From IMG/VR virus record IMGVR_UViG_3300033141_003149, positions 1 to 37,443 of that record: a stretch of DNA of 37,443 nt; one strand, written 5' to 3'. The notes beneath the pieces were generated by a model. The model was not told the origin of the DNA. It did not search any database and saw only the letters and a list, made by a program, of their open reading frames with translations. The position numbers and the translations under genes are program-made. This document shows, in pieces, positions 919 through 36,534 of the stretch; the stretch's first letter is position 1, and every line of letters begins with the position of its first letter. The stretch is from a virus.

Positions 919-1995
919 ATGAATAACCGCATGTCTCCTTTTGTGAGATTTCCTGAACATGAATTGGATTCGGGGCCGGAACAGTTTCGTTCAAGAGGAC
1001 TTGTTCCCATGGGACAGGTAATGGATGGTGACATAGATCCTTTCCGGGGGGATATGCCGACGCCAGCCATAACACCGCAGCAACAATATGACAGGGGCCA
1101 GCCAGGCAAAAAAATACTTGGTATGCCTAAAGATCAGTTTATCGCCTTAATGGGAACGATTGCTCAGGCATTTGGGGGCGATTCAGCCAGCGGCAGGATG
1201 GGCGCGGGGCTGGTCAACATGGCTGGCATGTTGCGCGAAGAGAGGCTTGGCCGGGCTAAGGCTCAAGCGGATGAAGCGGCTGCGAAGCGTAAGGCGGCGG
1301 CTGGAACTGCAAAAGAGAAGCGTGAAGCAGCGGCCAAGGAACGCGAGAGGTTAGAAAAGAAAAAAGGGAAAGCTCCTACGGTCAGGACATTTAGGGTAAA
1401 AAATGAAGAAGGTGTTGACATGGATGTCCAGCATTCCTTCAATTACGATACTCGCAAATGGGAGCCGATTCCCGGTATGACTGGCAAGGAAATTAAAGAG
1501 GCAAAGGAAGGAAAGGAGTCTCCCATAGTCAGGACATTTAGGGTAAAAAATGAAGAAGGTGTTGACATGGATGTCCAGCACGCATGGGATACTGATGCCG
1601 GAAAGTGGACGCTAATTCCTGGAATGCCTGGCAAGAAAGTAAAACCTCCTGCCGGAGAAAAGCCAAAGGAAAAGTCATGGGCTGAAAAGAGAGCCCGCGC
1701 GAAAGAGAAAAGAGGTCTTGAAGCTTCTATACTTGATCCTGAGAATTTAGAGAATCCTGCAATTCAGGTAAATATTGATGCTTTTAACGAATTACCTGAT
1801 ACTACCTATGTGTATCATCGGACACCTGGTACGCCTGCTGAAGAAACGGGTTGGTTTGATCTTAAGCGAGACGTTCCGGCAGTTCCGTCAACTATTGAAA
1901 AGGTGGATGTTTCAACGCCCGAGAAAGTCAAAGATTCGAGTTTACCGGTTGAAGTGAAACTGAAATTATTAAGAACACGATTCGGATATGACTAA
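919..1995 (+). CDS. 358-aa phage protein with internal duplication
   Basis: Function unknown. The N-terminal part has short helices, then an Ala/Lys/Glu-rich probable coiled coil at about residues 100-150. Next comes a duplicated module: VRTFRVKNEEGVDMDVQH occurs near residues 155-172 and again about 49 residues later, each followed by a W-x-x-IPGM motif (EPIPGM, TLIPGM). The underlying DNA copies are identical over 53 bases, so the duplication is recent or kept uniform by recombination. The stop overlaps the ATG of the next gene (TAATG), implying translational coupling to the polyvalent protein. A minor virion role is likely from context only. Confidence 0.7.
   Translation: MNNRMSPFVRFPEHELDSGPEQFRSRGLVPMGQVMDGDIDPFRGDMPTPAITPQQQYDRGQPGKKILGMPKDQFIALMGTIAQAFGGDSASGRMGAGLVNMAGMLREERLGRAKAQADEAAAKRKAAAGTAKEKREAAAKERERLEKKKGKAPTVRTFRVKNEEGVDMDVQHSFNYDTRKWEPIPGMTGKEIKEAKEGKESPIVRTFRVKNEEGVDMDVQHAWDTDAGKWTLIPGMPGKKVKPPAGEKPKEKSWAEKRARAKEKRGLEASILDPENLENPAIQVNIDAFNELPDTTYVYHRTPGTPAEETGWFDLKRDVPAVPSTIEKVDVSTPEKVKDSSLPVEVKLKLLRTRFGYD
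1381..1580 (+). repeat. 53-bp direct repeat inside the 358-aa gene
   Basis: Bases 1381-1433 and 1528-1580 are identical over 53 bp and lie 147 bp (49 codons) apart, in the same reading frame. They encode two copies of a short module in the 358-aa protein. The sequence between them is more diverged, so identity is confined to the N-terminal half of each module. Confidence 0.95.
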
Positions 1996-4900
1996 TGAAA
2001 GCTGAAGATTTTTTAAACCAGGAAACTAAACCTGTAGGCGAAAAGATTACTTCAAAGGGTATGTCTGCTGAAGCTTTTCTTGATATGCCTACAGAGGAGC
2101 CTATCGGAGAAACAGTAATTCCGGATATTGCACAAGAACGACCTCCTACCATGTTTGAACGTGGCAAAGAAGCGGCCACGGAGTTCTTTCGCCCATCTTT
2201 TGCACCTGAACCTGCTGTCCCGTCTGGCATGGAGGGAATGCCGGAGTCTGCTATTCCGGCTGGCATGTCAATGGATATCCCTGCCCGTAGGGCTGAGATT
2301 GACGAAAGGTTTAGTCAAATTGATGCCGAGGTCACAACGGGAAACATAGAAGGCCTACAGGCCCAAATTGAAGAGCTATCCTCTCAGGCGGTTGATGGGG
2401 CATTACCTCCAGACCTGTATAAGCAATATACTGCATTACGCCCACAATACGAAAAAGCCGTTGAAGATTATAACGCCGGGATAACTGAGGCCCAGGGATT
2501 GACAGGCGAGCTACAGGACCTGGAACAACAAGAATACGGGATGGCTATGGCACGTCCCGTTTCAACCGTTACAGGTAAACCAGTTCCTACTCCCGAAGAA
2601 AGAATGCTTGGTGGCATCACCGAACCAGGAAAGTTTGATTTCATGGACCGGGCCCGGGAGATCAAGGAAGAGGGCGTTGTTCCATTCATCCCGTTTGTGT
2701 CAGGTGCAAAGGAAGTTAAAGACATAGCCCAGGTTTCCGCGGCTGCTTACAAATTGAAAGAGGGGACCGCTACCCCTGAAGAAAAAGTAGACCTTTTGGA
2801 ATTTGTCGAAAAGGCAAGCAGGGACACCACCTTCGGGTACAAGGTCATTAATACAGTTGCGGCCATGCCTGCCTTTATGGGTGAATTCCTTCTTACCAGT
2901 GGACTGTATTCTGCTGGTCGAAAAGTCGGTACAAGGGCTGCGACGAAAACTCTTGAAGGCTATCTAGGCAAAGTTGGCAGAAAACTACTTGAAAAGGATT
3001 TGGGCAAAATAGGGGTAGGGATTGCCGGGGGAGTGGCCGGAGGTACATTGCAGGCCCCGATAATGGGCGCTCCTCGTATAGTGAGTGGGACCATAGAGCG
3101 GTCCATGCCAAAGCTGAAACTTTCCAGGAATGAGCAAGGTGAAATCAATGCGGTGATAGCCGGTGAAGGAGAAGACCTTCTCGTGGCGTCCACAATGGCG
3201 CTCGGGGATCAATGGGCTGAAACCGTATCAGAACATAGTGGCGGTTTGTTCAGGATGCTCAATGGATCTGCGAAAAATGCTGCAATCAGGGCCGGATTGT
3301 TCTCTGCCACCATGAAAGCCAATCCGGGCATGTCACCGAACAAAGTCAATACCCTTTTCAATAAAATGGCATATCACGGTGTCATTAATGAAATACTGGA
3401 AGAGCGGGTAGGTGAAGGCTTGCGGGCTGGCCTGGGTCTGCAAGAATATAAGATACCTACGGCTGAACAGTTAGCGGTTGAGTTGGTATCTTTTTCAGTT
3501 CCCGGTGTGATCCAAGTTCTTGGGGCGAGAGCTTTCAGGGGACCTAAACCTACGGAAGCTCCCCCAAAGGCTCTCCCCTTGGCAGCGCCAGACCTATCTG
3601 AAACACAAAGAGAGCTTGCCAAAGAGGTCATTCGTGAAAAAATGGCGGAACGGCCTCTTCCTCCTGCTATACCAGAAAGGCAAATACCGCTTGCCCCTCC
3701 CGGAATGCCTTCCCCCGGGATACCTCCGGTAACGCCTGAACCAATGGCCGAACTTCCACCAGGTCAAGGATTTGGACTTATAGAGCCTACACCTGAAATA
3801 AGGTTGCGTCCGGGCCCTGAGAGAATAGAAGGGCCTGAGTATCCTGAGGGGGCTGAATATGTGGCTGGCAGGCCTGCACCTGAAGAGCTTGAGGTTGAAT
3901 ACAAACCTATCCTTGGTTCACATGGTTTACCCTGGAAAGAGGAAGAAAGGGCTTTAAAAGCTTTTGAATCCAAAAGACTGATTGAGGCAGGAATTACTGA
4001 AGAGACACACGAAGTCGTACCGATTAAGAATGGATTTGGGATCATAAGAAAAACGGCTGTTGAGAAGGAAATTGTTGAACCTGAAGTTGTGCCGGAAGTT
4101 GAGAAGCCGGAAGTCGAAGTTTCTCCGGCTAAAGAAGAGGTTCCCGTTGAACCCGTTAAGCCTGAAGTAATCAAAATCCCCGAACTAAAAAATACCGAAG
4201 AAGCCTTAGCCTTTGGCAAAACGGCTACCCCTGAGCAGATCAAGGCCCTGAAAGCCAAAAGAGATGAAAGCCTGTCAAAAGCGGATGCCTTGAAAGATAA
4301 GGACGATCTACAAGGTGCCATGGATGAGGCTGTCAGGGGGCAGCTTTTCAGGGAGGCTATTGAGTCTGCTGAGGGAAAAGTTGTTGAGGTGAAGAAACCC
4401 AAAGAGCCTGTTGTTTTTGACATGCCAAAATTTCCTAAAGATGATTTTGATAATGAGATAAAAGCTCTTAACCAATACTTGGTTGAACACGATTCCAAGA
4501 AGGGGCGAGTCCCTGCCAAAAAACCATATCTCAAAACAAGAGACGAGGAATTTGCTAAAATTGTAGGTGATACTGATTATCAGGATTCTAATATTGCTGG
4601 CGGCGTAGAAGATGTGCGCCAAGCAATTTGGACAGGTGAAAAGCTTGGGTATCATCCAGATGACATAGCTAAATATCTTGAACAAAATTACGTAGAAGGC
4701 GTATCAGGTGGGGGGAAGATAATTTCTCAGATTGAAAGACCTAAAGAACCTGTTGCCGAAGTCCCGGCGAAAGAACCTTGGGAGACAAAACAAGAAGAAT
4801 ATATTGATAATATTAATAAAGAGTATCAAGCGAAGAAGGAAGAAATAGAAACTAAAGAAAAGAATACTCTTTCTGAAATTGATGCTAAGCAATCACGGGA

Positions 4901-7900
4901 CATAACACCTAAACGCGGAAGACAAATAAGTAATCAGTACGAAGAAGCAAAAAAGAAATTTTATGAAAAACGAATGCGACTTGATGAAGTTTATCATGAA
5001 CTCAGATATAAAGATGGAAAATTTGTAACAAAACATCAAGATGTTATCAAAAAAGCCCTAAAATCCGGCCAACTAACCCCCGAAGCCTACACCAAACTCC
5101 ACGAAAAGGATTATGGGCCTCTTGCGGAGTTTATGCCTGAAGTGGTTGAGAAAGCCAAGCCTGAAGCTAAGGTTGAAAAATTTGAAGAAATATACCGTGG
5201 AGAGGGAGGTCCATCAGTAAAAGAGGGACGTTATTGGTCCCCTGATAAAGAATGGGCTGCACAATTTACGCAGACAGGAAGATTGTCAGAAGTAAAATCA
5301 GGACGAATAAAATCTTCTGATATATATGAGGCGTCACCCTTAACGGAAGCTACAGACCCCGATGCCATAGACGCTGCGGCCAAACTCGCAAAGAAAGAGG
5401 GATTCAAGGCTATTCGTTTAGATGAAGGAAAGCGTGAACCTGATTCGGTTTATATCTTTGACAGGACTGCAATTAAGCCTGAGAAGATTAAGAAAGAACC
5501 CCTCTCCGAAACCAAGTCCCGCCTACTCGCTAACATAAAATCCGAAAAGGGTTCATCTGAACTCATAAACGATCTGTCTCGCCTCGGGGCCGATGCGATG
5601 CGCAGGGGCCATACCACCTACAAAGCTTTTACGGCAGAGATGAAAAGTGAGTTGAGTAGTGTCTGGGAGAAAATCAAATCGTTGATACGCAAGGCTTATT
5701 TTGCGGCTAAAAAGGTTGTTGCCACAGTCAAAAAATGGAATGAAAAGCCGGATACTTGGGAAATTTACGACAAAAAAAGCGGTGATATCGTCGATGTGCT
5801 TAAACCTGGAGAAAATAAAATAGAGTATGCCGACATTGATATACTTTTGGGAGTTGACAAAAAATATGGAATAAGAAAAGCCAAAAAGATCCCAGTTGAA
5901 ATGCTTCCAAGAATAATCAAGAGTGAACGAGGAGCGGTTGAAATTGGGAAACCCAAGCCAAAACCTGAAGTTGGCCGTGAAGTCATAAGCAAGGACGGAA
6001 CCACTGTTGATTGGGATAGGTCAAGAGTCATTACAAAAGAAAAGGTAACTCATAAGTGCTATGCGACCTACAACAAAGACGGCTCTTTTAAAAAATGGAG
6101 AACCAGGGAGGCGATAAACAAGATCAGGGCACTCAAGAAAGCTGACGTGAAATATAAGGAACGATTAGGAAAAGCCAAGGATAAATTTGATGTCCGGGTA
6201 GAGAAAATCAAAACTGCCAAGGAAATTCTCAAAAGGCGTCGGGAAAAAATCCGGGCTGTCAAAGAGCATTTCCTGTTGTCGGATAGTGATTTAAGGAAAA
6301 TTACAAAAAGAGATATCCGCTTGATGTCTGACTTTGAATTTAAACAGTTTATTGATGACATAAGAGTAAAAGCTGAAAAGTTTGCCGAAAGACGGCAAGC
6401 TGTAAATGAGCTGGAATTACTTAAAAAGGAAAAAGCTTTTATAGGTGAAGAGAATATTCGGAAATTTTACAAATTACCGACTGTCAAAAATATGACTCAC
6501 AAGCAGTTAGAGGAATATGCAGAAATTTTGAGCGGATATGAAAAGGGCGATCAGTTTTTAACTCCAAAAAGGATAGGTGGAATAGAAAATACACTATGGG
6601 CGGGCTCAAGAACTGTGCGTGAAGTATTGGAAAAAGCCTCAAAAGAATTTGATGTCCCATTGTCAGAGCTTAGAAAAGTCAAGGTGTCGGAGATTGATAG
6701 GTTCAGATATGACACGTCTCTTGCAAGACAAAATCCTTTTTACAATTTCATGGTTGACACGATAAGAACGGCAGAAATCAAAAGTCAGTTCAAATATTTT
6801 AAGGAGAGAGAAAAGCTTTACCGGCTTGCTAAGGCAGCACTGAAATCAAGAAAAAGAGGGATACTCGGAAGGTTGGTTCCGCGCCAAAAAGACTTGATGA
6901 ACTATCTGGAGGCGGAGGGCGATGCAAAAATAGAAATGGCTGAAAAATTGACCGTAGAAGAGATAGCTCTTGCGGAAGGAATAGAAGATTTTTACCGCAG
7001 AGCCTACAACTGGTTACTTATAAGTCAGGAATTAAAAACCTCTCGTTTCGAAGATAAGTATGTCATGCATGCCAAGCGGCCTATAAGCGAACTGCTGATT
7101 GATTTAAAGGATACCGGGATCAAGAGTGCTGTAAAGGATCTGTTAAACAGGTGGCGGCTTGATGAGGCTCAATTCAAGATACTTGACAGCAAGACCGGCG
7201 AAATTCTCAGGATGAAAAAGTTCTTCCGGCAGACGCTATACCGGACAGGGGAGCTGACTCCTACTAAAAACATCGTCAAGGCCACTGATATTTACATGCA
7301 GCAATTTTTCCAGAAAATGGCACTCGATGAATCTGTCCCCGCAATAGAAACCCTTGCCATGGCTTTGAGGCCGAAAGAAAAAACAAGAACAGGGATATTC
7401 TTGAACGATAGTCTGATGACATTTGTTAAAGAATACCTGAATACTAAGAAAGGAAGGGCAATTAATATTGGAATACAGCAAGGTGGGAAAGTAGATACTG
7501 TAATAAGATTCACAAACCAGATTATTTCCCTCAGATACATTGCTCTTAACATCCCGCTTGAGCTTGCGGCCATTGTCGGTGAGACAACTGCAAAGTTGCC
7601 AGCGCTGGGGAACAGGAAGCTTATACTTGCGAACATAAGAAGGCACACACCGCGAGGCAGGCGGATACTAAAAAAATACAAGGCATATACCGGGGAGGGA
7701 GTTCTTGAAGAGGCTCTTCAGCCAGCAAGAAACATAGGTGAAAATATAAACCTGCTTTTATATGGATTATTCAAATGGAGTAGAAGAGTTACAAAGCAAG
7801 ATATTCTTCTCGGAAATATGACAAAGGCAGAATTTGAGGCGGAGACAATTAGCTCTGAAAAATTAGCTGAAGCTACAAAAATGACCGGGAGGTGGCTTGA

Positions 7901-8471
7901 TATTGAAGGTGCAAAAAGCATCATGGGAACTACGTCAAGCGGAGCGGCTATTACAAAATTCAAGGGGTGGGCGATACCCATTGTCAGCTCTACTGCACAA
8001 AACGCAGCTTCGCTGGCAAGAACATTGACAAGAGTGGGAAATCCCAAGAAACGGCTTACCCGGCAACAATTTCAAGAGCTTTATCGGATTGCAGAAATGG
8101 GAGCGATCGTAGCGGCTGTTGCGTCCTTGAATGTCGATGACGACGATAAAGATACGTTTGTCGGACGGTTAAAGTATTATGTGATAAGAGAATTGGGAAC
8201 TATCTACAATGCCCTAAGTCCAAGAACTATGTTGACCTTTGGTGTTACCATAGCTTTCCTGGAAAAGCTTTCACAGAATCTTTATACACTTATGACTCTT
8301 GAAAAATATAAGACCAAAGATGAGCTCAAGGGAGTGAGGGCGCTGAAAAAACAACTTACACCAGCGGCCATAAGTCAGTTTAAGGAAAAAAAGAAACCGG
8401 AGCCCAAAAAGAAGAAAGGTCGTTTAACCGGGGGTCTTTCTGGCGGCGGGCTAAAGAGTAGATTGAAATAA
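1995..8471 (+). CDS. Giant phage polyvalent protein with ART-like domain (2158 aa)
   Basis: Very long multi-domain protein of the kind called phage polyvalent proteins, thought to be packaged in the virion and delivered with the DNA. Seen in the sequence: a Pro/Glu-rich N-terminus; a hydrophobic Gly-rich segment at about residues 335-365; long Pro/Glu/Val-rich linkers at about 510-760; a charged helical part at about 940-1040. Near 1065-1165 there is a compact domain beginning IYRGEGG, followed by RYWSPDKEWAAQF and ending VYIFDRTAIKPEKI; this layout resembles ADP-ribosyltransferase-like domains of polyvalent proteins, but catalytic residues cannot be confirmed by eye. A basic coiled-coil region (about 1370-1500) and a C-terminal helical domain with hydrophobic segments follow, with a Lys/Gly-rich tail. 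Other assignments for the sub-domains are possible. Confidence 0.75.
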   Translation: MKAEDFLNQETKPVGEKITSKGMSAEAFLDMPTEEPIGETVIPDIAQERPPTMFERGKEAATEFFRPSFAPEPAVPSGMEGMPESAIPAGMSMDIPARRAEIDERFSQIDAEVTTGNIEGLQAQIEELSSQAVDGALPPDLYKQYTALRPQYEKAVEDYNAGITEAQGLTGELQDLEQQEYGMAMARPVSTVTGKPVPTPEERMLGGITEPGKFDFMDRAREIKEEGVVPFIPFVSGAKEVKDIAQVSAAAYKLKEGTATPEEKVDLLEFVEKASRDTTFGYKVINTVAAMPAFMGEFLLTSGLYSAGRKVGTRAATKTLEGYLGKVGRKLLEKDLGKIGVGIAGGVAGGTLQAPIMGAPRIVSGTIERSMPKLKLSRNEQGEINAVIAGEGEDLLVASTMALGDQWAETVSEHSGGLFRMLNGSAKNAAIRAGLFSATMKANPGMSPNKVNTLFNKMAYHGVINEILEERVGEGLRAGLGLQEYKIPTAEQLAVELVSFSVPGVIQVLGARAFRGPKPTEAPPKALPLAAPDLSETQRELAKEVIREKMAERPLPPAIPERQIPLAPPGMPSPGIPPVTPEPMAELPPGQGFGLIEPTPEIRLRPGPERIEGPEYPEGAEYVAGRPAPEELEVEYKPILGSHGLPWKEEERALKAFESKRLIEAGITEETHEVVPIKNGFGIIRKTAVEKEIVEPEVVPEVEKPEVEVSPAKEEVPVEPVKPEVIKIPELKNTEEALAFGKTATPEQIKALKAKRDESLSKADALKDKDDLQGAMDEAVRGQLFREAIESAEGKVVEVKKPKEPVVFDMPKFPKDDFDNEIKALNQYLVEHDSKKGRVPAKKPYLKTRDEEFAKIVGDTDYQDSNIAGGVEDVRQAIWTGEKLGYHPDDIAKYLEQNYVEGVSGGGKIISQIERPKEPVAEVPAKEPWETKQEEYIDNINKEYQAKKEEIETKEKNTLSEIDAKQSRDITPKRGRQISNQYEEAKKKFYEKRMRLDEVYHELRYKDGKFVTKHQDVIKKALKSGQLTPEAYTKLHEKDYGPLAEFMPEVVEKAKPEAKVEKFEEIYRGEGGPSVKEGRYWSPDKEWAAQFTQTGRLSEVKSGRIKSSDIYEASPLTEATDPDAIDAAAKLAKKEGFKAIRLDEGKREPDSVYIFDRTAIKPEKIKKEPLSETKSRLLANIKSEKGSSELINDLSRLGADAMRRGHTTYKAFTAEMKSELSSVWEKIKSLIRKAYFAAKKVVATVKKWNEKPDTWEIYDKKSGDIVDVLKPGENKIEYADIDILLGVDKKYGIRKAKKIPVEMLPRIIKSERGAVEIGKPKPKPEVGREVISKDGTTVDWDRSRVITKEKVTHKCYATYNKDGSFKKWRTREAINKIRALKKADVKYKERLGKAKDKFDVRVEKIKTAKEILKRRREKIRAVKEHFLLSDSDLRKITKRDIRLMSDFEFKQFIDDIRVKAEKFAERRQAVNELELLKKEKAFIGEENIRKFYKLPTVKNMTHKQLEEYAEILSGYEKGDQFLTPKRIGGIENTLWAGSRTVREVLEKASKEFDVPLSELRKVKVSEIDRFRYDTSLARQNPFYNFMVDTIRTAEIKSQFKYFKEREKLYRLAKAALKSRKRGILGRLVPRQKDLMNYLEAEGDAKIEMAEKLTVEEIALAEGIEDFYRRAYNWLLISQELKTSRFEDKYVMHAKRPISELLIDLKDTGIKSAVKDLLNRWRLDEAQFKILDSKTGEILRMKKFFRQTLYRTGELTPTKNIVKATDIYMQQFFQKMALDESVPAIETLAMALRPKEKTRTGIFLNDSLMTFVKEYLNTKKGRAINIGIQQGGKVDTVIRFTNQIISLRYIALNIPLELAAIVGETTAKLPALGNRKLILANIRRHTPRGRRILKKYKAYTGEGVLEEALQPARNIGENINLLLYGLFKWSRRVTKQDILLGNMTKAEFEAETISSEKLAEATKMTGRWLDIEGAKSIMGTTSSGAAITKFKGWAIPIVSSTAQNAASLARTLTRVGNPKKRLTRQQFQELYRIAEMGAIVAAVASLNVDDDDKDTFVGRLKYYVIRELGTIYNALSPRTMLTFGVTIAFLEKLSQNLYTLMTLEKYKTKDELKGVRALKKQLTPAAISQFKEKKKPEPKKKKGRLTGGLSGGGLKSRLK

Positions 8472-15201: not shown

Positions 15202-17067
15202 TTAGAGTCTCTTTATGTATCCACCTTCAACCCAAAATATACGAATAGGTGAATTCTCTGGCACGCTGGGAGGCCCTGCTGCGTTGGTAGCGGCTGCGGC
15301 TACGACTTGGGTAGTCTGGCCTATGTCAACGAGCCACTTGCGAACACGGGTACTGTCAGCGGCTACACTGATGTTCAATTCGTCCAATAGTAGCAGACCC
15401 ACTCCGGTTACGTGGCTGATAGCCTCTGCAACTGCCATTCTTACGCGCGAGGTTTCAGCGCCTCCAAGTGTCCATAGCTGTTTTTTGTCGGCCTGTACGA
15501 GGCTCAAGTCATCCAGGAAGAGGATATCAACTCCCATCATCGGCGCATGTTCTTTTAACCGGGCATTCAGGGTCCCCAGCTTTTCCGCCACAAGCTCACC
15601 GGGGATTCCGTCTGGGGCAAGCAGCGTACATAGCGCGTTATAATGTTCACGCCTTGTCTCTGTTTCTTCAATCTTTGCCCGAGTTGCATCCAATGTTGCC
15701 TTGGTTGCCTGGTTCCAGGTAATCGCTGATTGTGCGATTTTGAGATATTTGACCTTTTCTTCGATTGCTTCTATTGAAATTTCAAGAGCTTCTTTTTTCT
15801 CACCTGCTTCAGGCGCGGCATTTTCCAGCTTTTCCTCAATCTCCTTGATTTCTTTTTCCAAATCGGCAATGTCGTCTTTTGTTTTCATGCAGCCTGCAGC
15901 CTTTTTCGAGAGATCATCCCATTTTTCTTGTTCGGGGAACTCTTTTTCCTCGACTGCTTTGATCCTCTCTGATATTTTGTCAATCTCTTTTTGCTGTTCG
16001 GACCAATCCGGCTCAATAGCTGGACACATTTTATGTCCAGATGCTCCAGGTATGGGACATGCAAGATTGCTTTTCCAGTTCTTTTTATTTTCTGCCAAGA
16101 GGTCTTCGGTTGTCGCTAGCAAATTTTCAAGGGCTGCAACGTCCTCTTTGACTTTGGTGTCAAACTTTTTCTTTGCTTCCTTCAGCTCAGTGGCCTCAGC
16201 GGTATCCTCTTTTGTCCACTTTTCCGCTTTTGCGAGTTCAGCCTTTTCTGTCTGGTATTCTGACAGTTGTTTCTCTGCCTCCTTCTTGTCTGCGTCTGAC
16301 AGGGCCTTGATTCCCCCAAGCTCCTTGTAGAGTTCCTTGAGGCGTTTCTTGTGGGTTGCTTCTTGTTTTTCAAGGGGTTTTTTCTTATGGGTTGCCATGA
16401 TGGTATCCATGAGGACTTGCGTGTTTCCTAGGGCAACCTGGGTGATCAATTTGGGCTTATCGCCCTCAAGGGCCTTAATTCTTTGCCCTGCTTCGCGGCG
16501 TGAATTGTAGGCTATGCTATAGCCGGCATCCCATCCGAGGTGATCAATTTCTTTAATGACTTCTTCATTCCATAATTCTTGACAGACATTTTCGGCATAT
16601 CCTTTTTCGTAGAGGGCGATAAAGGCGTCTTTCAGGGTGGGCTTTAGTCCCAGGGCCTTGATGATGAGCTTTTTTTGATGTGCAGGGTCCAAATCAAAAT
16701 AGTAATTTGCACTGAGGCATGCTGACAGAATATGCGGGTCAACGCCCAACTGAGCACCAATTTGGACAGGGGAGGGCCCGGACCTATTTGTTTTGGCCAG
16801 GGTACGCTTGATGTTGAAAGGAGATGTCCCTGCTTGGCCGGTAATCGTCACCGAGGCTGTTTTGCACTGGTCGTTAATTGCCTCGATGAAAGCTCCCTTG
16901 GACTGGCCTTGGATACTATCAGTCAGGGCGTAGATTGTTGCGTCCAGCAGAGATGTTTTGCCGGTTTCGTTGTGGCCAAGGAAAAGGTTACACTTGGATG
17001 ATAACTCTATTTCTGCTGCCCGAATTCTTTTAAACCCTTTTATTTTAACGTTATTGATGCGAATCAT
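15202..17067 (-). CDS. SbcC/Rad50-like coiled-coil ATPase
   Basis: 621 aa ABC-type ATPase of the SMC/SbcC/RecF group, which organises or processes DNA ends. Walker A is GHNETGKTS (residues 31-39). The ABC signature region is LGGAETSRVRMAVAEAI (about 530-546) and Walker B is GLLLLDELN (557-565). Between them is a long Lys/Glu/Ala-rich coiled coil (about 200-480). A hook-like turn near residues 333-347 reads CPIPGASGHKMCP, with two Cys 11 residues apart instead of the usual CxxC. The protein is shorter than bacterial SbcC, as expected for phage versions. The ATG overlaps the stop of an HNH-like gene (ATGA). No SbcD partner is seen in this window. Confidence 0.85.
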   Translation of the reverse strand: MIRINNVKIKGFKRIRAAEIELSSKCNLFLGHNETGKTSLLDATIYALTDSIQGQSKGAFIEAINDQCKTASVTITGQAGTSPFNIKRTLAKTNRSGPSPVQIGAQLGVDPHILSACLSANYYFDLDPAHQKKLIIKALGLKPTLKDAFIALYEKGYAENVCQELWNEEVIKEIDHLGWDAGYSIAYNSRREAGQRIKALEGDKPKLITQVALGNTQVLMDTIMATHKKKPLEKQEATHKKRLKELYKELGGIKALSDADKKEAEKQLSEYQTEKAELAKAEKWTKEDTAEATELKEAKKKFDTKVKEDVAALENLLATTEDLLAENKKNWKSNLACPIPGASGHKMCPAIEPDWSEQQKEIDKISERIKAVEEKEFPEQEKWDDLSKKAAGCMKTKDDIADLEKEIKEIEEKLENAAPEAGEKKEALEISIEAIEEKVKYLKIAQSAITWNQATKATLDATRAKIEETETRREHYNALCTLLAPDGIPGELVAEKLGTLNARLKEHAPMMGVDILFLDDLSLVQADKKQLWTLGGAETSRVRMAVAEAISHVTGVGLLLLDELNISVAADSTRVRKWLVDIGQTTQVVAAAATNAAGPPSVPENSPIRIFWVEGGYIKRL

Positions 17068-17549
17068 ATTATTTTTTCCTCAATTCGTGTGAATGTCCAG
17101 CCCTGGCAGGTTTTGCGACGGCCTGCAAGACAACTAGAAATATCGCCCTGACGTAATCCATGCTCTTTAGCGAACTGATGCTGGTTATTAGAACAGAATA
17201 TTTCTTCTTTAGGGCTTATAGCTTGAAACCGTTTTTGTTTATTGGGGCCGCAAGATTTAGGTCTTGAATTAATTTGCTGTTCATGTTTTGTACTCCATTG
17301 GCAATTACTAGGTTCGTAATTGCCATCATTATCTGTGCGATCTATAGAATATTCAGGTCCTAATCGTTCGCCCATATCCGCAAAGAAATTCTCGAACGAA
17401 CACAACCAGCGCCTGCAAACAATGATTCCACGACCGCCGTAGTCTTTGTATTGTGAATGGTTCGGATTTTGGCATCTGGCTTTCATGTTAGCCCAGCTTC
17501 GATGTTCTAACGATTCCCCACCCCTTCTACAATGTCCGTGTATTAACAT
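17064..17549 (-). CDS. HNH-like homing-type protein, family member 2
   Basis: 161 aa. It carries the same blocks as its paralogues: HGHCRRGGESLEHRSWANM, RCQNP, YGGRGIIVCRRW, SIDRTDNDGNYEPSNCQW, KRFQAISPKEEIFCSNNQH and a GWTF ending. The gene is wedged between the Gp3-like gene (3 bases upstream) and the SbcC-like gene, whose start codon overlaps its stop as ATGA. The neighbouring genes are intact, so the insertion created no visible damage. Confidence 0.7.
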   Translation of the reverse strand: MLIHGHCRRGGESLEHRSWANMKARCQNPNHSQYKDYGGRGIIVCRRWLCSFENFFADMGERLGPEYSIDRTDNDGNYEPSNCQWSTKHEQQINSRPKSCGPNKQKRFQAISPKEEIFCSNNQHQFAKEHGLRQGDISSCLAGRRKTCQGWTFTRIEEKII

Positions 17550-18719: not shown

Positions 18720-19496
18720 TTATGTTAGAAAATCAAATATCCAGTTTTTTGTAGTTTTTCGTTTTTTATATAAACAAGCAGATATGTTTGAAGAGTAAAG
18801 TTCATGCTTTCTCGCAAATTCACTCTGGTTATTATCTTCAAACCATTCACCCGTATTTTGATTGAATGCCCAAAACCAATGTTGTTTCGTGGGACCACGA
18901 GATCTGGATCTACGGTTATTTGCTTGTTCTTGACGAGATGCCCAGCGAAAATTATTAGGTTCATAGTTTCCGTCATTATCAGGCCAGCGGTCTATGGTCA
19001 TTCCTTTAGGCGGATTTCCTACGTCAGCATAGAAATTCTCAAACGAATGCCAGCGTTTACAAACTTTGATTCCCCGACCACCGTAATCTTTATAGGCTGG
19101 ATTTCTTGGATTAATACAGCGCTGAATTATGCCTTTCCAAATTTTATGTATTGGAGTTCCAGACATTCCGTGTGTTGTAAAATGTTTTTTAGCTAATTCT
19201 TTTACAAGACATCCACAACTTTGGGTGTGACCTGATCTAAGATGATAAGAATTTATTTCACAAACTTTCCCACAGCTACACAAGCACAGCCAAGCAATTG
19301 ATCTTCTTTGTCTTTTCTCTGTAGGCTCAATAGCCACCAGTCGCCCGAATCTCTGTCCTGAAATGTCTTTCGCGTTGCTATGTAATTTCATGCTAATTTT
19401 ATGGAAGAACTCCTGATGCTGCTTAGGACCTGCCGCGAGAGGAGGTTCCGGTTTCCCGGACATCAGGAGTTCAAATTTTAGATTTCGGGGTTTCAC
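18720..19496 (-). CDS. HNH-like homing-type protein with zinc domain, family member 3
   Basis: 258 aa from a GTG at 19496; a Met 35 codons downstream (19391) fits the usual family start better but has no ribosome binding site. After the extension comes DISGQRFGRLVAIEP, then a zinc-ribbon-like block CLCSCGKVCE...SGHTQSCGC. The shared blocks follow: [37 protein letters not shown] and a C-terminal [10 protein letters not shown] module. The N-terminal 35 codons contain a 12-bp inverted repeat. It lies between the RecE-like and Gp3-like genes; the latter starts 12 bases after its stop with its own AAAGGAG box. Confidence 0.7.
   Translation of the reverse strand: MKPRNLKFELLMSGKPEPPLAAGPKQHQEFFHKISMKLHSNAKDISGQRFGRLVAIEPTEKRQRRSIAWLCLCSCGKVCEINSYHLRSGHTQSCGCLVKELAKKHFTTHGMSGTPIHKIWKGIIQRCINPRNPAYKDYGGRGIKVCKRWHSFENFYADVGNPPKGMTIDRWPDNDGNYEPNNFRWASRQEQANNRRSRSRGPTKQHWFWAFNQNTGEWFEDNNQSEFARKHELYSSNISACLYKKRKTTKNWIFDFLT
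19407..19472 (-). other. Stem-loop with GAAA-capped inner hairpin
   Basis: GAACTCCTGATG (19407-19418) is the exact reverse complement of CATCAGGAGTTC (19461-19472). On the minus strand the 42-base interior contains TCCGG-GAAA-CCGGA, a hairpin with a GNRA-type tetraloop, and a possible ACCT/AGGT stem, giving a three-way-junction shape. It lies in the N-terminal extension of the HNH-like ORF. It may be a structured RNA or regulatory hairpin. Confidence 0.55.
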
Positions 19497-19547: not shown

Positions 19548-20357
19548 TTAATCATCCGCTCCAAGGATAACTATTTCATTCATATATCCCGGCCAAACGT
19601 TATTTTTTATACACTCGATATATTTTTCAAGATCAATGTCAATCTGTTGCCGTGCTGCTTCTATTATTTCATCAGAGAGCATATAAATCGCAGTTTCATA
19701 GGGACTGAAATTTTCCACAACTATGAAAATAAAAGCTTCCGTGCGTCTGTTTACTCCGGCCGCTTGATACGCAGCATTTAATCCGCGCTCGTACCATGCT
19801 GCCTGTCTATCGTATCCCCAGCGTTTCACTTCGCGCAAAAAACCTTGAGGGCTGCCTGCTTGAGAACTTTTCAAATCTATTATAATATCGTCTGTACGAA
19901 TATAATCTGGTCTGATTTTACAGCGTAAACCTGAGGCTGGATCATCCCAAAAAATGGACATTTCTGGGGTTCCCCCTGTAAGCAGTTCATGCGCTACTGA
20001 ACAAGATGTATTTTTAAAGGCATCTGCCATGTTTATTACATTATTATATTGACTAGGTGTTAATGCTATGGCCTTCGGATTCGCTTTGTCCCACTTAACA
20101 CGTCCAGCAGATCCTACACGCGGGGCAGAGCCTTTGCCGAATTGAGCTTCAAAAAGTTCTGGTTGCAGGATGGAGCAATGCAAAGCACTTCCTTCTGTTT
20201 GCGTCCCGGTTGCCGGCCTGTCGTTGTCGCGCCAGTAGGCAAATTTTTTAGCCGATTGGCTGAAGATTTTGAGACCGGAATTATTGATGGCGGAATCAGC
20301 GAGGTACTCGTGAAAAGGGATGTCCTGGAAAAAACCGGGGCTGAATGTTTTGGTCAT
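19548..20357 (-). CDS. RecE-like PD-(D/E)XK exonuclease
   Basis: 269 aa. It belongs to the PD-(D/E)XK nuclease superfamily close to exodeoxyribonuclease VIII/DUF3799, which resects double-stranded ends for phage recombination. Seen: an N-terminal YLADSAINNSGLKIF segment, GSALH near 57-60, IRPD with Asp151, DLK with Asp161 and Lys163 as the catalytic core, and YDRQAAWY with Gln185 as the downstream Q motif. The ATG overlaps the stop of the HNH-AP2 gene (ATGA). It is the first conserved gene of the minus-strand recombination operon. Confidence 0.8.
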   Translation of the reverse strand: MTKTFSPGFFQDIPFHEYLADSAINNSGLKIFSQSAKKFAYWRDNDRPATGTQTEGSALHCSILQPELFEAQFGKGSAPRVGSAGRVKWDKANPKAIALTPSQYNNVINMADAFKNTSCSVAHELLTGGTPEMSIFWDDPASGLRCKIRPDYIRTDDIIIDLKSSQAGSPQGFLREVKRWGYDRQAAWYERGLNAAYQAAGVNRRTEAFIFIVVENFSPYETAIYMLSDEIIEAARQQIDIDLEKYIECIKNNVWPGYMNEIVILGADD

Positions 20358-20899
20358 ATCTCATACCCCATGGTTTTTAGCTTAACCCGGTTTACGTTTA
20401 AGTGATTACAGGTCCAGTCTGAACATTTATCCTCAAATTTGCAACGGGCTAAGGCTGCTTCTTCACTGGTATCATGACAACCGAGGTAAATCGTTTTCCC
20501 ACGAATGGTAATATATGCTTGCCATTTTTTAGCACATTTATTTCGATAAACACCCGTGAATCCACTGGTTGATGCTGAATTAACCCCGTAATTTTGCATA
20601 TTGCATGATCTGGTAACGTGTCTTAAATTTTTCCAACGGTTATCGTCTCGGATGCCATTTAAATGATCAACATCATTTTCAGGTAAGTAGCCTTCCATAT
20701 ACAAGAATGCAAGTCGGTGAGCCTGATATCTTTTGTTGTCAATTGAGATTGTGACATAGCCACAACTATTATGAGATTTAGCGATATCGCCGATTTTTAC
20801 ACGACGAGACAGGCTGACCCTCCAAACAAAAATCCCTGTTTTGGGTGAATACTCAAGAACTTTGCACAACCTTTCTTGTGTCAGTAATTTTGTTTCCAT
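20354..20899 (-). CDS. HNH homing endonuclease with AP2 domain
   Basis: 181 aa from the ATG at 20899, which has an AAGAGG box in front; an upstream in-frame ATG at 20917 contains that box and is less likely. A canonical HNH_3 nuclease block is visible: YQAHRLAFLYMEGYLP, then VDHLNGIRDDNRWKNLRHV with the catalytic D-H pair and later N residues. An AP2-type DNA-binding domain follows (GFTGVYRNKCAKKWQAYI, then KTIYLGCHDTSEEAALA). It is a free-standing homing endonuclease at the head of the recombination operon, immediately downstream of the divergent control region. It overlaps the RecE-like start by four bases. Confidence 0.9.
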   Translation of the reverse strand: METKLLTQERLCKVLEYSPKTGIFVWRVSLSRRVKIGDIAKSHNSCGYVTISIDNKRYQAHRLAFLYMEGYLPENDVDHLNGIRDDNRWKNLRHVTRSCNMQNYGVNSASTSGFTGVYRNKCAKKWQAYITIRGKTIYLGCHDTSEEAALARCKFEDKCSDWTCNHLNVNRVKLKTMGYEI

Positions 20900-20910
20900 T
20901 TTTAAGCCTC

Positions 20911-20967
20911 TTGACATTCAAAAAAATACGATTATTATTTATAATAATTATTTATAATAATTAGTCA
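20911..20967. promoter_or_regulatory. Divergent control region with tandem dyads
   Basis: A 13-bp unit ATTATTTATAATA occurs twice in tandem (20934-20946, 20947-20959); each unit with its flank forms a dyad ATTAT-TTATA-ATAAT. On the plus strand TTGACA at 20911-20916 is a strong -35, with AT-rich -10 candidates in the repeats. On the minus strand TTGACT at 20967-20962 has ATTATA 17 bases away. The layout suits overlapping divergent promoters with operator sites, probably bound by the Cro-like protein encoded next door. Confidence 0.65.
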
Positions 20968-28635: not shown

Positions 28636-29280
28636 ATGTTTTCAGAAAATGTTGTGGCCAGATATTGGAAATATGTAATAGTAAAAAATGGTTGCTGGGG
28701 TTGGAGTGGATCAAAATCATTAGGCTATGGGCAACTTGCAGTTACGAGAGGAATGGCTACTGCAAAAGCTCATAGAATATCTTGGTTTATTCATTATGGG
28801 CGCATTCCTAAAGGTCTAAGTGTTTGTCATAAGTGTGATAATCCTGAGTGTAGTAATCCTGAGCATCTTTTTCTTGGAACCCATAAAGAGAATATGGTTG
28901 ATGCACACAAAAAAGGACGGCTTCGTTTTTATAAACAAGGTTCAGGAGAAAAAAATAACGTAGCAAAATGTACCATGGAACAAATAAAAAAAATAAGAGA
29001 AGAATTCGCAGCAGGTGCAACATTGGCCGAATTATCTAATAAATATCAAAATACCAATATGATTAGGATAGTCAGAAATAAATCATATATTGATCCAGAT
29101 TTTAAACCAATAAATGGGAATGAAAAACCGAGACCATTTCGAAGAAAATTAACAAAAAAAACAATTAATTATATTATTGAGTCATCGTTATCATCAAGAA
29201 AAATAGCTAAAAAGCTTGGTGTGTCGAAGACTCTTATACTTTCAGCCAGAAAAGGAGATTTGTATGAGCAAGGGACTTAA
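28636..29280 (+). CDS. HNH homing endonuclease inserted at the 5' end of ssb
   Basis: 214 aa. A canonical HNH_3 block is visible: NGCWGWSGSKS, AHRISWFIHYGRIPKGL, VCHKCDNPECSNPEHLFLGT and ENMVDAHKKGRL, with the catalytic His pair and Cys residues of this subfamily. Two helix-turn-helix-like segments follow (MEQIKKIREEFAAGATLAEL and SSRKIAKKLGVSKTLILSA) that would recognise the target. A GGAGG box precedes the ATG. Its last codons overlap the start of the intact ssb by 17 bases, and a truncated copy of the ssb start lies just upstream. This is the arrangement expected from homing into ssb. Confidence 0.9.
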   Translation: MFSENVVARYWKYVIVKNGCWGWSGSKSLGYGQLAVTRGMATAKAHRISWFIHYGRIPKGLSVCHKCDNPECSNPEHLFLGTHKENMVDAHKKGRLRFYKQGSGEKNNVAKCTMEQIKKIREEFAAGATLAELSNKYQNTNMIRIVRNKSYIDPDFKPINGNEKPRPFRRKLTKKTINYIIESSLSSRKIAKKLGVSKTLILSARKGDLYEQGT

Positions 29281-33069: not shown

Positions 33070-33573
33070 ATGGCTACTTGCAAAACCAAATACAAAGAAG
33101 ATTATCCTCAAATAGCTGAGGTCGTCTGCGAAGAGGGCGGGCTTTCCTTGCGTCAACTGGGCAAGGCCCTGGGGGGTGTCTGTGCTAAAACCATACTTGA
33201 CTGGAAGAAAAAGTATCCGGAATTCGAAGAGGCTGTGAACCGAGGCACTGCGGCATTCGATAAATCAACGGCTAAAAACTCCCTTCAGAAACGATTACAG
33301 GGCTATTTTTACAACGAGACTACCTCTACCCTGGTCACCGATCCAAAAACAAAAATAGCCAAAATGACAGTCACTCGAATAGTCAAGAAGCACATGCCGG
33401 CTGACGTTCATGCCCTGACTCTCTTCTTGATTAACAGGGACGCCGAAAACTGGAAATATCGTCAGCAGATAGATGTTAATGTCCTGCAAAAACTTTCCGA
33501 TAAGGAAATTGATAAGCGGATTTCCTTGATTGTGGACAATACCAAAAAAAGGAAGAAGCGTGCAACGGGCTGA
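33070..33573 (+). CDS. terS: Terminase small subunit
   Basis: 167 aa from the ATG at 33070; a TTG three codons earlier is possible. It recognises the packaging site and brings DNA to the large subunit. The N-terminal CEEGGLSLRQLGKALGG, then CAKTILDWKKKYPEFEEAVN, is a helix-turn-helix like that of Terminase_2-type small subunits. A central helical oligomerisation part and a basic C-terminus (DNTKKRKKRATG) follow. It overlaps the large-subunit gene by 14 bases, the usual arrangement. Confidence 0.8.
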   Translation: MATCKTKYKEDYPQIAEVVCEEGGLSLRQLGKALGGVCAKTILDWKKKYPEFEEAVNRGTAAFDKSTAKNSLQKRLQGYFYNETTSTLVTDPKTKIAKMTVTRIVKKHMPADVHALTLFLINRDAENWKYRQQIDVNVLQKLSDKEIDKRISLIVDNTKKRKKRATG

Positions 33574-36001
33574 CAATACAGCTTTAGACTTGGGCTATGG
33601 CCAGTATAGCCGTATCCAAAAAGAGAACCTTTTGGCGCTCCTCCAGGAGAAAGAGAGGCGTGTCAATTCAAGGAAAATTCTATCTTTGTATCCTGATAAT
33701 GGGCCATTAAGGCGTGAATTATACCGGCCGCATGTGACCTTTTTCGAAGCTGGGGCCAAGTTTCGTCAACGTTGTTTCATGGCAGCTAACCGGGTTGGGA
33801 AGACTGAGGGCGTCGGCGGCTATGAACTGACTTTGCATCTTACCGGTCAATACCCTAAATGGTGGAAAGGTAAAAGATTTAATCGACCAATAAGGGCCTG
33901 GGCAGCAGGCACGACCGGCCAAACAACCAGGGATATCGTGCAGCGTAAATTGTTGGGTCCTATAAATAATATCGGGACCGGCCTAATTCCTGGTGATTGT
34001 ATAGCCGACTATAAAAAGAAGGCTGGTAATGTCCCGGATGCCATAGAGACCGTTTATGTCAAGCATATAACAGGTGGAATTTCAAGTTTGGGTCTCAAGT
34101 CCTACGAACAGGGGCGTAAGGCCTTTGAGGGCGATGAGCAAGACGTTGTTTTGCTTGACGAAGAATCGCCCATTGATATTTATACTGAGTGCCTAACGCG
34201 GACCATGACCACTCAGGGCATTGTGATGCTTCTGTTCACTCCCTTGCAGGGCCTATCTGATACTGTTCTCATGTTCATGCCTGGTGGCCAGATACCGGCA
34301 GAGATGGGCAAGCGTTTTGTGATTCAGGCCTCGTGGGATGACGCGCCTCACCTTTCGGAACAAGACAAGCAGGATATCATTGATTCTTATTTACCTCACG
34401 AGCGGGATGCTCGGTCGAAAGGTATCCCTCAGCTTGGATCCGGTCGAATATATCCAGTTTCAGAGGATGATCTGCTTGTCGATGACTTTGTGATTCCCGA
34501 TCATTGGATACAGGCTTATGGCTTTGACGTTGGGTGGAAAGCAACGGCTGCGGTCTGGGGGGCCCTGAACCGCGAATCCGATGTGCTTTATTTCCATTCA
34601 TGTTACAAGCAGGGCCAGGAAAAACCGTTAATACATGCCGAGGCCGTTAAAGCCCGTGGGGAGTGGGTGCCGGGATTATCCGATCCGGCCGCTCTTGGTC
34701 GAGGTCAGAAGGATGGGAGCCAGCTCATGGTTGAGTATAATGACCTGGGCTTAAAACTGGTCCCTGCAGAAAATCCGGTCGAAGCTGGAATCTTGAAGCT
34801 GTATAAACGAATGACTACAGGACGGCTCAAGGTGTTCCGGTCAATGGTCCAATGGCTTGAAGAGTTCAGAATTTACCGACGTGATGAAAAAGGCAGGGTA
34901 ATCAAAGAATTTGATCATCTCATGGACTGCCTACACCCAGATACTCTTGTTATTACCAATCAGGGAAAAATCAGAATAAAAGACTTGGTGGGTACAGAGG
35001 GCCTGGTTTTGAGTACAGACGGAAAGTGGTTGCCTTATGAAAATTGTAAGCGATATGGGCAAAATAAGTCTGTAGTGGAGATTTTGTTTAACGATGGAAG
35101 CAAAGTTGTTTGTACGCCGGACCATAAGTTTTTGACGTCTAGGGGATGGGTTGAGGCTATTGATTTGCAAGACACGGATTGTTATAGTGCCGTATCTTAT
35201 ACAATTTCGGAGACAAATAAATGCAAATCATTGAACTGTCTGAAAAGAAGCAAGAATTTAAGGGAAAGGTTTATTGTCTGTACGGAAAATATTTCCGAAA
35301 AAATGGGGTTAGCCTGCACCGTGAGGTGTGGAAAAGCCAAAACGGGGAAATTCCTGAAGGATATGTGGTCCACCATATTGATGAAAATAGATCAAACAAC
35401 GACATTTCTAATCTGGACTTATTGTTACTCGCTGAACATACTTCGCTTCACCAAAAAGGACATGATCGACCAGTTTCTCCCGAAGCTCTCACTGCAGCCG
35501 CAAAATGGCATGGTAGCACAGATGGAATTGAATGGCACAAACAGCACTACGAAGACTTTAAAGACAGACTTCACCAAAAGGCCAAATTTGTTTGCGAGGT
35601 TTGCGGAAAGAAATTTATTACACAAATTACAGGGCAAAATAGATTCTGTTCAAACAGCTGTAAATCAGCTTGGAGACGTAAAGCGGGACTCGATAATATT
35701 GAAAGAACCTGTTCAGAATGTGGGAAAAAATTTATCTCGAATAAATACAATAAGACACAAACATGTTCAAGGGAATGCGGTGCTAAAATGTCTGGCCGTA
35801 AAAGACGCGGGAAAAAGCGACGTATATTGTCTTGAAGTACCAGAATCACATGCCTTCGCAGTTGAAAGCGGAGCAATAGTCCATAATTGTTCCCGATATC
35901 TCAATAATTCAATCGTGGAAATAGGAATAACCCGGCCAGAAGACGAGCTCGTAATCGTTCCTGGCTCAAGTAGTAAGTTGGCCTCGGGATGGGCAAGATG
36001 A
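33560..36001 (+). CDS. terL: Terminase large subunit interrupted by an intein
   Basis: 813 aa precursor from the GTG at 33560, which has a GGAAG box; a TTG at 33530 is an alternative. After removal of a 320-aa intein the mature protein is 493 aa, normal for a large terminase. It packages DNA with an N-terminal ATPase and cuts it with a C-terminal RNase H-like nuclease. Walker A is AANRVGKT (residues 75-82), Walker B is VVLLDEES (about 196-203), and the first nuclease Asp is in GFDVGW (Asp323). The intein sits directly after DHLMD, the motif holding a nuclease metal ligand, and before CSRYLNN, so nuclease activity must depend on splicing. Confidence 0.9.
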   Translation: MQRADNTALDLGYGQYSRIQKENLLALLQEKERRVNSRKILSLYPDNGPLRRELYRPHVTFFEAGAKFRQRCFMAANRVGKTEGVGGYELTLHLTGQYPKWWKGKRFNRPIRAWAAGTTGQTTRDIVQRKLLGPINNIGTGLIPGDCIADYKKKAGNVPDAIETVYVKHITGGISSLGLKSYEQGRKAFEGDEQDVVLLDEESPIDIYTECLTRTMTTQGIVMLLFTPLQGLSDTVLMFMPGGQIPAEMGKRFVIQASWDDAPHLSEQDKQDIIDSYLPHERDARSKGIPQLGSGRIYPVSEDDLLVDDFVIPDHWIQAYGFDVGWKATAAVWGALNRESDVLYFHSCYKQGQEKPLIHAEAVKARGEWVPGLSDPAALGRGQKDGSQLMVEYNDLGLKLVPAENPVEAGILKLYKRMTTGRLKVFRSMVQWLEEFRIYRRDEKGRVIKEFDHLMDCLHPDTLVITNQGKIRIKDLVGTEGLVLSTDGKWLPYENCKRYGQNKSVVEILFNDGSKVVCTPDHKFLTSRGWVEAIDLQDTDCYSAVSYTISETNKCKSLNCLKRSKNLRERFIVCTENISEKMGLACTVRCGKAKTGKFLKDMWSTILMKIDQTTTFLIWTYCYSLNILRFTKKDMIDQFLPKLSLQPQNGMVAQMELNGTNSTTKTLKTDFTKRPNLFARFAERNLLHKLQGKIDSVQTAVNQLGDVKRDSIILKEPVQNVGKNLSRINTIRHKHVQGNAVLKCLAVKDAGKSDVYCLEVPESHAFAVESGAIVHNCSRYLNNSIVEIGITRPEDELVIVPGSSSKLASGWAR
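34928..35887 (+). mobile_element. Intein in terL (320 aa)
   Basis: It starts at Cys in CLHPDTLVI (block A) and has CTPDHKFLTSRGW (block B with the TPDH motif) near residues 60-72. It ends with VYCLEVPESHAFAVESG (block F) and VHN followed by Cys (block G and the +1 residue). All residues needed for protein splicing are present. Residues about 98-302 have no recognisable endonuclease in the terminase frame; that stretch also encodes an HNH protein in another frame. Confidence 0.92.
35221..35835 (+). CDS. HNH homing endonuclease nested out of frame in the intein
   Basis: 204 aa, read in a different frame from terL over the same DNA. A canonical HNH_3 block is present: KYFRKNGVSLHREVWKSQNG, IPEGYVVHHIDENRSNNDIS and LDLLLLAEHTSLHQKGH, with the His pair and Asn of the active site. 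The C-terminal part has two zinc-ribbon-like CxxC units (CEVCGKKFI and CSECGKKFI, with CSNSC and CSREC partners). GGAG at 35209-35212 stands 8 bases before the ATG, so it can be translated independently. The stop falls at the start of intein block F. It would spread the intein by cutting intein-free terL genes. Confidence 0.88.
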   Translation: MQIIELSEKKQEFKGKVYCLYGKYFRKNGVSLHREVWKSQNGEIPEGYVVHHIDENRSNNDISNLDLLLLAEHTSLHQKGHDRPVSPEALTAAAKWHGSTDGIEWHKQHYEDFKDRLHQKAKFVCEVCGKKFITQITGQNRFCSNSCKSAWRRKAGLDNIERTCSECGKKFISNKYNKTQTCSRECGAKMSGRKRRGKKRRILS

Positions 36002-36144
36002 CAATATTACGAAAAATACGAGCTATGATAGCAGAATATGTAAGTGTCGTAGGTGTGGGTCCAGCTATTTTTGTCTTAATATTATTAATTTTTGTTTTGG
36101 TATTATTAGGTTTTTGCCTTTTAGAGTGGCTGGGATTAAGATAA
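35998..36144 (+). CDS. 48-aa single-span membrane protein coupled to terL
   Basis: The sequence begins MTILRKIRAMIAEYVSVVGV and then has a strongly hydrophobic stretch PAIFVLILLIFVLVLLGF, one transmembrane helix, ending LLEWLGLR. The ATG overlaps the terL stop as ATGA. Short basic N-terminus and single span suggest an inner-membrane peptide; function unknown. Confidence 0.6.
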   Translation: MTILRKIRAMIAEYVSVVGVGPAIFVLILLIFVLVLLGFCLLEWLGLR

Positions 36145-36177
36145 TGCCAATATGATAGATAAAGTGAGGAAAAAATT

Positions 36178-36534
36178 ATGATAACCAATAAGATTTTCGA
36201 TGCGATTACAATTGCAGCTAGCGGCGTAGCCAACTCAGTTCCCATAGAATTACCTCACCACTTAGAGGGATTCTTTTCGCTACAGATCGAACTGACCGGT
36301 AATGGCACAGCTAAGTTTGAATATGAAGTTTCGAACGACGGCGAGACCTATATAACCCAGACGGCAACTGCTGACCAGATTGTTTCCGGCTTTACAAAAA
36401 CATCCGGGCCGGGATCAGACGGAAAGGACCTCATCAGTTTCGAGCCGGAACCTGCAAAAATGATGAAAATAGTGTGTACTGAGACAGGCACATCTGATTC
36501 TGTGACAATTACCGTGACAGCAGTAATAAGGTAA
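36178..36534 (+). CDS. Small beta-rich virion-type protein
   Basis: 118 aa. The sequence reads as a beta sandwich: FFSLQIELTGNGTAKFEYEV, then SNDGETYI, KDLISFEPEPAKMMKIVCT and SVTITVTAVIR. Proteins with this layout are common among phage head or tail decoration and appendage proteins, but no family name is certain. It has a GTGAGGA box and begins the late structural run after terminase. Confidence 0.6.
   Translation: MITNKIFDAITIAASGVANSVPIELPHHLEGFFSLQIELTGNGTAKFEYEVSNDGETYITQTATADQIVSGFTKTSGPGSDGKDLISFEPEPAKMMKIVCTETGTSDSVTITVTAVIR

Follow-up and report, generated by a model that had tools for sequence, protein, structure and literature searches.

The window, which is the whole stretch of DNA analysed here, is an IMG/VR virus record of 37,443 bases. 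It carries terL as an uninterrupted open reading frame at 33530-36001, with a TTG start, a length of 823 amino acids and a stop codon ending at 36001. Searches with Pfam identified Terminase_6N, Terminase_6C and Intein_splicing in its product, the last above the Pfam cut-off, and among the NCBIfam models intein_Nterm begins at residue 467 of TerL and intein_Cterm ends at residue 787. The features of the locus are as follows.

33530..34927, + strand: TerL N-extein, 466 codons, ending in DHLMD (Terminase_6N/6C; 57% identity to EBPR podovirus 1 TerL)
34928..35887, + strand: intein, 320 codons, stop-free in the terL frame (PF14890, TIGR01445, TIGR01443; C1, TPDH, HN, C+1; empty site in L134)
34928..35206, + strand: IntN half of the Hint fold, residues 1-93 (AlphaFold2 pLDDT about 97)
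35207..35770, + strand: overlapped intein-frame linker, residues 94-281, predicted to be disordered (pLDDT mostly <50; nested pairs without amino-acid constraint)
35209..35212, + strand: GGAG Shine-Dalgarno-like box, 8 nt 5' of the HNH ATG (from the sequence; enriched across the class)
35218..35220, + strand: TAA stop in the HNH frame, abutting the HNH ATG (from the sequence; bars upstream frameshift fusion)
35221..35835, + strand: nested HNH_3 endonuclease gene, 204 amino acids, in frame -1 of the intein (PF13392 E=1e-14; phrog_15471 E=2e-49; AlphaFold2 pLDDT 92.6)
35771..35887, + strand: IntC half of the Hint fold, residues about 282-320 (TIGR01443; AlphaFold2 pLDDT about 97)
35888..36001, + strand: TerL C-extein, CSRYLNN..., 37 codons and the stop (aligned to ASRYL..., which follows DHLMD in L134, the TerL of which is uninterrupted)

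The inserted segment has the sequence features and predicted fold expected of an intein. It lies in frame in a host protein with a known empty site, which is observed in the TerL of EBPR podovirus 1, where DHLMD is followed directly by ASRYL; in the window, the intein stands between DHLMD and CSRYL. The splicing residues are present, comprising Cys1, the block B motif TPDH (TxxH), the C-terminal HN and the +1 Cys, and canonical splicing motifs are also present in nearly all inteins of the nested class described below. Both halves of the Hint fold were predicted confidently by AlphaFold2, and a Foldseek search with the intein-frame model matched the NpuDnaE, gp41-1 and NrdJ-1 inteins. The statement of a first-pass annotation, made from the sequence alone, that terL runs open through a complete intein is thereby confirmed. 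The arrangement is not that of a split intein, in which IntN and IntC are located on separate genes, since the window contains a single open ORF. A group I intron around the HNH ORF was also considered and was rejected because an Rfam search of 34500-36300 at E<=1 gave no match, so that no group I intron core RNA was found there.

The same annotation had proposed that a 204-residue HNH_3 protein with its own GGAG box and ATG is encoded in an overlapping frame, and this also proved correct. The gene does lie under a stop-free intein frame, but the extent of the overlap had been understated at about 195 codons; all 205 HNH codons, including the stop, are overlapped. The protein combines the HNH_3 domain with two zinc-ribbon-like Cys clusters (a double zinc ribbon). 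Residues H51, H52, D54, N60, H73 and H77 are conserved in the family together with eight Cys residues, of which seven are invariant and C167 is nearly so; the protein therefore possesses the HNH motif and conserved zinc-binding Cys residues by which a homing endonuclease is recognized. Among solved structures its best match is the HNH homing endonuclease I-HmuI (PDB 1u3e), although the match is weak and partial (profile E=0.007; Foldseek probability 0.96, E=0.01, rmsd 14.5) and I-HmuI, unlike the HNH of the window, is intron-encoded.

One stretch of DNA thus appears to encode two different proteins. The AlphaFold2 outcomes for the same DNA differ, with a pLDDT of 92.6 for the HNH frame and values mostly <50 for residues 94-281 of the intein frame. 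Judging from these models and from the substitution patterns discussed below, the part of the intein frame under the overlap acts as a disordered linker, for which staying open may be the only requirement. The 3' end of the HNH gene, about 65 nt at 35771-35835, is also part of the IntC coding sequence, and this stretch therefore serves both products. Two protein families, phrog_30251 and phrog_35162, match the intein frame across the HNH overlap (window 35345-35866), and phrog_35162, the function of which is unknown, may have been built from a frame that serves mainly as a linker.

Elsewhere in the window, four more HNH-family endonuclease genes are located at 17064-17549 (-), 18720-19496 (-), 20354-20917 (-) and 28636-29280 (+), an unusually heavy load of such genes for this 37-kb phage record. 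A 2158-residue ORF at 1995-8471 (+) had no PHROG match at E<=1e-5, and the same was true of the neighbouring ORFs at 919, 9119 and 10012.

Related loci were gathered by scans with the HNH family and phage records. With the intein-frame protein as the query, no relatives were found among viral contigs, probably because the linker diverges freely, and the queries that worked were the HNH protein and the HNH alignment. Profiles of IntN, HNH and IntC were then used to sort 120 non-redundant representatives, the IntC matches being taken from the last valid iterated profile. The nested layout, in which IntN and IntC both occupy the +1 frame of the HNH gene and this frame is stop-free throughout, was observed in 58 representatives including the window, with the HNH gene in the -1 frame of the intein in every case. 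A further 27 contained IntN and IntC without a continuous frame, 31 contained the HNH without a detectable intein and four were partial. The search for the same layout in related terL inteins, which the first-pass annotation had suggested, thus yielded 57 other non-redundant viral or bacterial loci with the same frame offset, and the arrangement is no isolated case but that of a widespread class. No in-frame fusion of this HNH with an intein, as in a conventional homing intein, was seen among the loci sorted.

The nested class is found in metagenomes and in the genomes of isolated phages, namely Tetrasphaera phage TJE1, Acinetobacter phage Highwayman and LS06, a Rhodobacteraceae phage; the annotations of these three give terL as one long gene, with no HNH gene annotated there. 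In nearly all nested loci the host protein is TerL and the site is the DHxxDALRY motif. The N-exteins of 54 loci were scanned for domains, giving Terminase_6N in 28 and Terminase_3 in 23. Four neighbouring positions in or adjoining the motif account for the assigned insertion sites of 55 of 57 loci, a count that includes one locus (L127, WHRAW^CDEVAAW) with only a loose fit to the motif.

The start of the HNH gene was characterized across the class. Shine-Dalgarno boxes of >=4 nt were found at 69% of nested HNH starts and at 22% of background starts, and boxes of >=5 nt at 40% and 5%, respectively. This count used whichever of a few candidate starts scored best, which somewhat favours the HNH genes, and the remaining 31% of nested loci have a box of <4 nt, i.e. 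none that is recognizable. The enrichment supports internal initiation at the HNH start, a process that is inferred from these sequences. Alternatively, ribosomes might slip from IntN into the HNH frame by programmed frameshifting, producing an IntN-HNH fusion and no free HNH, as might be suspected from the invariable -1 position of the HNH relative to the intein and from the 12 of 57 nested loci in which the HNH frame is open upstream into IntN. However, a stop near or after the end of IntN closes the HNH frame in the other 45, and the boxes are enriched at the internal start. The fixed offset, moreover, needs no special mechanism because +1 is the low-stop frame of the HNH family (143 stops in free HNHs compared with 415 in +2); it is also possible that it reflects a single origin. 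Frameshifting is thus very unlikely for the class, and in the window an upstream frameshift fusion was rejected since the TAA codon directly before the HNH ATG bars it.

A comparison of substitutions in the two frames, also suggested at first pass, was restricted to comparable nested pairs. HNH-changing substitutions amounted to 0.27 per site when silent in the intein frame and 0.24 when intein-changing, compared with 0.69 for HNH-silent, intein-changing substitutions and 0.66 for those silent in both frames. HNH-changing substitutions are thus suppressed about 2.5-fold irrespective of the intein frame, a pattern indicative of purifying selection on the HNH frame and of none on the overlapped intein frame beyond its openness; it is only indicative because the pairs are few and partly overlapping. 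This suppression bears on the possibility that the nested HNH is a decaying relic that is no longer made, the intein being a mere splicing parasite with a long linker. Loss of the HNH does occur in the family, as in Brochothrix phage BL3, which retains a fragment, and in the mini-intein of Podoviridae sp. ctRVW222, which has no HNH. In the nested pairs, however, the HNH sequence is being preserved to the extent described, the catalytic and zinc-binding residues are conserved, and the HNH ORF of the window is complete at 204 residues with a Shine-Dalgarno box, all of which makes a relic very improbable.

It is also conceivable that the HNH protein is a packaging partner of the terminase rather than a homing enzyme. 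HNH proteins encoded beside terL are known packaging components (Kala 2014, as cited in PMC10448857), and free homologues of the HNH considered here likewise adjoin terL. However, the HNH gene of the window sits within an intein at a site in terL, the HNH travels with the intein halves in both the nested and the split layouts, it is absent from the site in close uninterrupted TerL relatives, and the solved structure that it resembles most is that of the homing enzyme I-HmuI. A packaging role can therefore be given very little weight.

The openness of the intein frame over the HNH gene was compared with chance expectation in 65 non-redundant loci in which IntN and IntC share the +1 frame of the HNH. 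This frame contained zero stops in 57 loci and 4 to 13 in eight, with none containing 1-3, whereas about one zero-stop locus was expected from the GC-matched rate in non-nested homologues; in the subset with GC<0.45, 21 of 28 were stop-free against 0.02 expected. Within-gene synonymous shuffling predicted 98 stops for the nested class, of which none was seen, while split homologues (202 seen, 194.5 expected) and free HNH homologues (143 seen, 141.2 expected) matched the shuffle expectation. Avoidance of stops is confined to the nested class. The shuffle test is partly circular because openness helped to define this class, and the weight consequently rests on the bimodal stop counts and the two control classes. 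The constraint also reaches the HNH protein itself: Met followed by Lys, Asn, Thr, Ile or Met forces TGA in the other frame, and the count of such pairs is 0 of 78 for nested HNHs, compared with 25/73 and 24/70 for the others.

For the window alone, the first-pass estimate that chance would leave the frame open about once in ten thousand in random DNA relied on the wrong null. When the codons of the HNH gene are shuffled without changing its protein, a stop-free second frame arises with P=0.13; judged by non-nested homologues of equal GC, the expected number of stops is 7.2 (P=7e-4). The window thus provides only modest evidence against chance, and recurrence is the decisive evidence. That the terL frame is open by luck, or through indels hiding an in-frame fusion, is barely tenable: the shuffle result for the window and the single indel of locus L005, which shows that such errors do occur in these contigs, are set against the bimodal counts and control classes, by which luck was rejected, and against the recurrence of the layout, including in the isolate genomes of TJE1, Highwayman and LS06, by which an artefact was rejected. 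An indel restoring the HNH to the intein frame, which had been named as a potential refutation, need not be invoked at any of the 58 loci.

The locus is best explained as a dual-coding homing intein, consisting of a cis-splicing TerL precursor and a separately initiated, homing HNH endonuclease, with a probability of about 0.82; splicing, internal initiation, HNH expression, cleavage and homing are all inferred. Ribosomes on terL would read through IntN, the unstructured linker of ~190 residues and IntC to give one precursor, the Hint domain of which would splice in cis to release intact TerL. Translation of the HNH gene in the -1 frame would be a separate event, with ribosomes initiating internally at the Shine-Dalgarno box and ATG of this gene, and its product may cut intein-free terL at the conserved DHxxDALRY nuclease motif, after which repair would copy the intein across. 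Selection on the essential terL would hold the intein frame stop-free, and selection on mobility would preserve the HNH sequence. The dual-coding interpretation put forward in the first-pass annotation is supported by the recurrence with a fixed offset, the nested-specific stop avoidance, the selection on the HNH, the Shine-Dalgarno enrichment and the structure predictions. Insertion at neighbouring positions of one TerL motif favours a homing intein, while the weak resemblance of the HNH to a solved homing enzyme counts against it.

Of the 27 loci that lack a continuous frame, most resemble split inteins: a stop closes the TerL-IntN frame shortly past IntN, the HNH is provided with a separate start, and a further start may be available to IntC. 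This description does not fit L005, which is a nested locus carrying one indel, or BL3 (L011), where only a remnant of the HNH is left. Relatives in which the terL frame is closed by stops, also regarded at first pass as a potential refutation, do therefore exist, but most of them have this distinct layout and are not broken copies. At the TerL DHxxDALRY motif, L010:1670-2774 (Lactobacillus phage CL2), L105, L107, L052, L054, L058 and others are candidates for new split inteins, with a member of the same HNH family flanked by one ORF for TerL-IntN and another for IntC and the TerL tail; the annotation of CL2 contains only a terminase and an HNH gene there. In PAE1 and SN1, the HNH lies beside terL with no intein. 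In Podoviridae sp. ctRVW222 (L018:2501-2926), a TerL mini-intein related to that of the window has only a short linker and no HNH, and thus represents the class in an empty form. The layouts are interspersed in the HNH tree, with >=23 state changes for three layouts, of which strongly supported branches force only two; the tree is too weak and does not resolve the order of events or whether nesting arose once or repeatedly.

Inteins are usually described as having an in-frame endonuclease or as having lost it. Fractured genes with split inteins and free-standing endonucleases were reportedly described by Dassa and coworkers (Dassa et al.) in 2009. As in those genes, the endonuclease gene of the window is separate from the splicing domain and is placed between the two halves of the intein. 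The best matches of the window intein include gp41-1 and NrdJ-1, and close HNH relatives lie between separate IntN and IntC ORFs; the intein of the window, however, is a single uninterrupted ORF, with the endonuclease gene overlapping it. In the dCTP deaminase of cyanophage CL131, an in-frame HNH intein has been described for which the splicing product was seen experimentally (PMC6293099); it shares the association of a Hint domain with an HNH_3 endonuclease, but its HNH is fused in frame with the intein, whereas that of the window is in another frame.

The closest precedent found is the DNA methylase of phage ShiLan, which carries an out-of-frame 195-residue HNH with zinc fingers in an insertion (Arsenault, Gosselin & Gogarten, 2025; PMC11855218); that study detected neither a splicing domain nor an intron in the insertion, and its authors found no ribosome-binding site. 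In both cases the HNH is out of frame, in the same relative frame, and the insertion leaves the host frame open, and the ShiLan HNH is a distant sequence relative of that of the window (family HMM E=6e-10). The window differs in that a splicing element is present: a true, canonical Hint intein, in TerL, surrounds the out-of-frame HNH, and the class, known from 58 loci, usually has a Shine-Dalgarno box. In Mycobacterium phage ShiLan gp65 (L137:6786-9668) a separate Hint N-domain may be present at residue 177, a long way from the out-of-frame HNH at ~597-761. No description of an out-of-frame HNH within a true intein was found in the literature searched, but priority remains uncertain because subscription papers were mostly not covered.

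A whole class of inteins thus keeps its endonuclease in another frame, and surveys of the host frame alone would overlook the nuclease and record only an intein whose linker makes no sense. The presence of hidden HNH genes within TerL entries of phage databases is suggested, none being annotated in TJE1, Highwayman and LS06. The class is also a replicated natural example of DNA in which selection makes very different demands on two frames, a folded enzyme in one and an open linker in the other, and it may be a source of new inteins, both contiguous and split, for use in protein engineering. It is probable, in our judgement, that dual-coding inteins are an unrecognized, widespread class of phage homing elements concentrated at the TerL nuclease motif and form a continuum with split inteins and with free HNHs beside terL. 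They may bridge free endonucleases into inteins, or contiguous inteins into split ones, and they offer a testable route between the contiguous and split forms.
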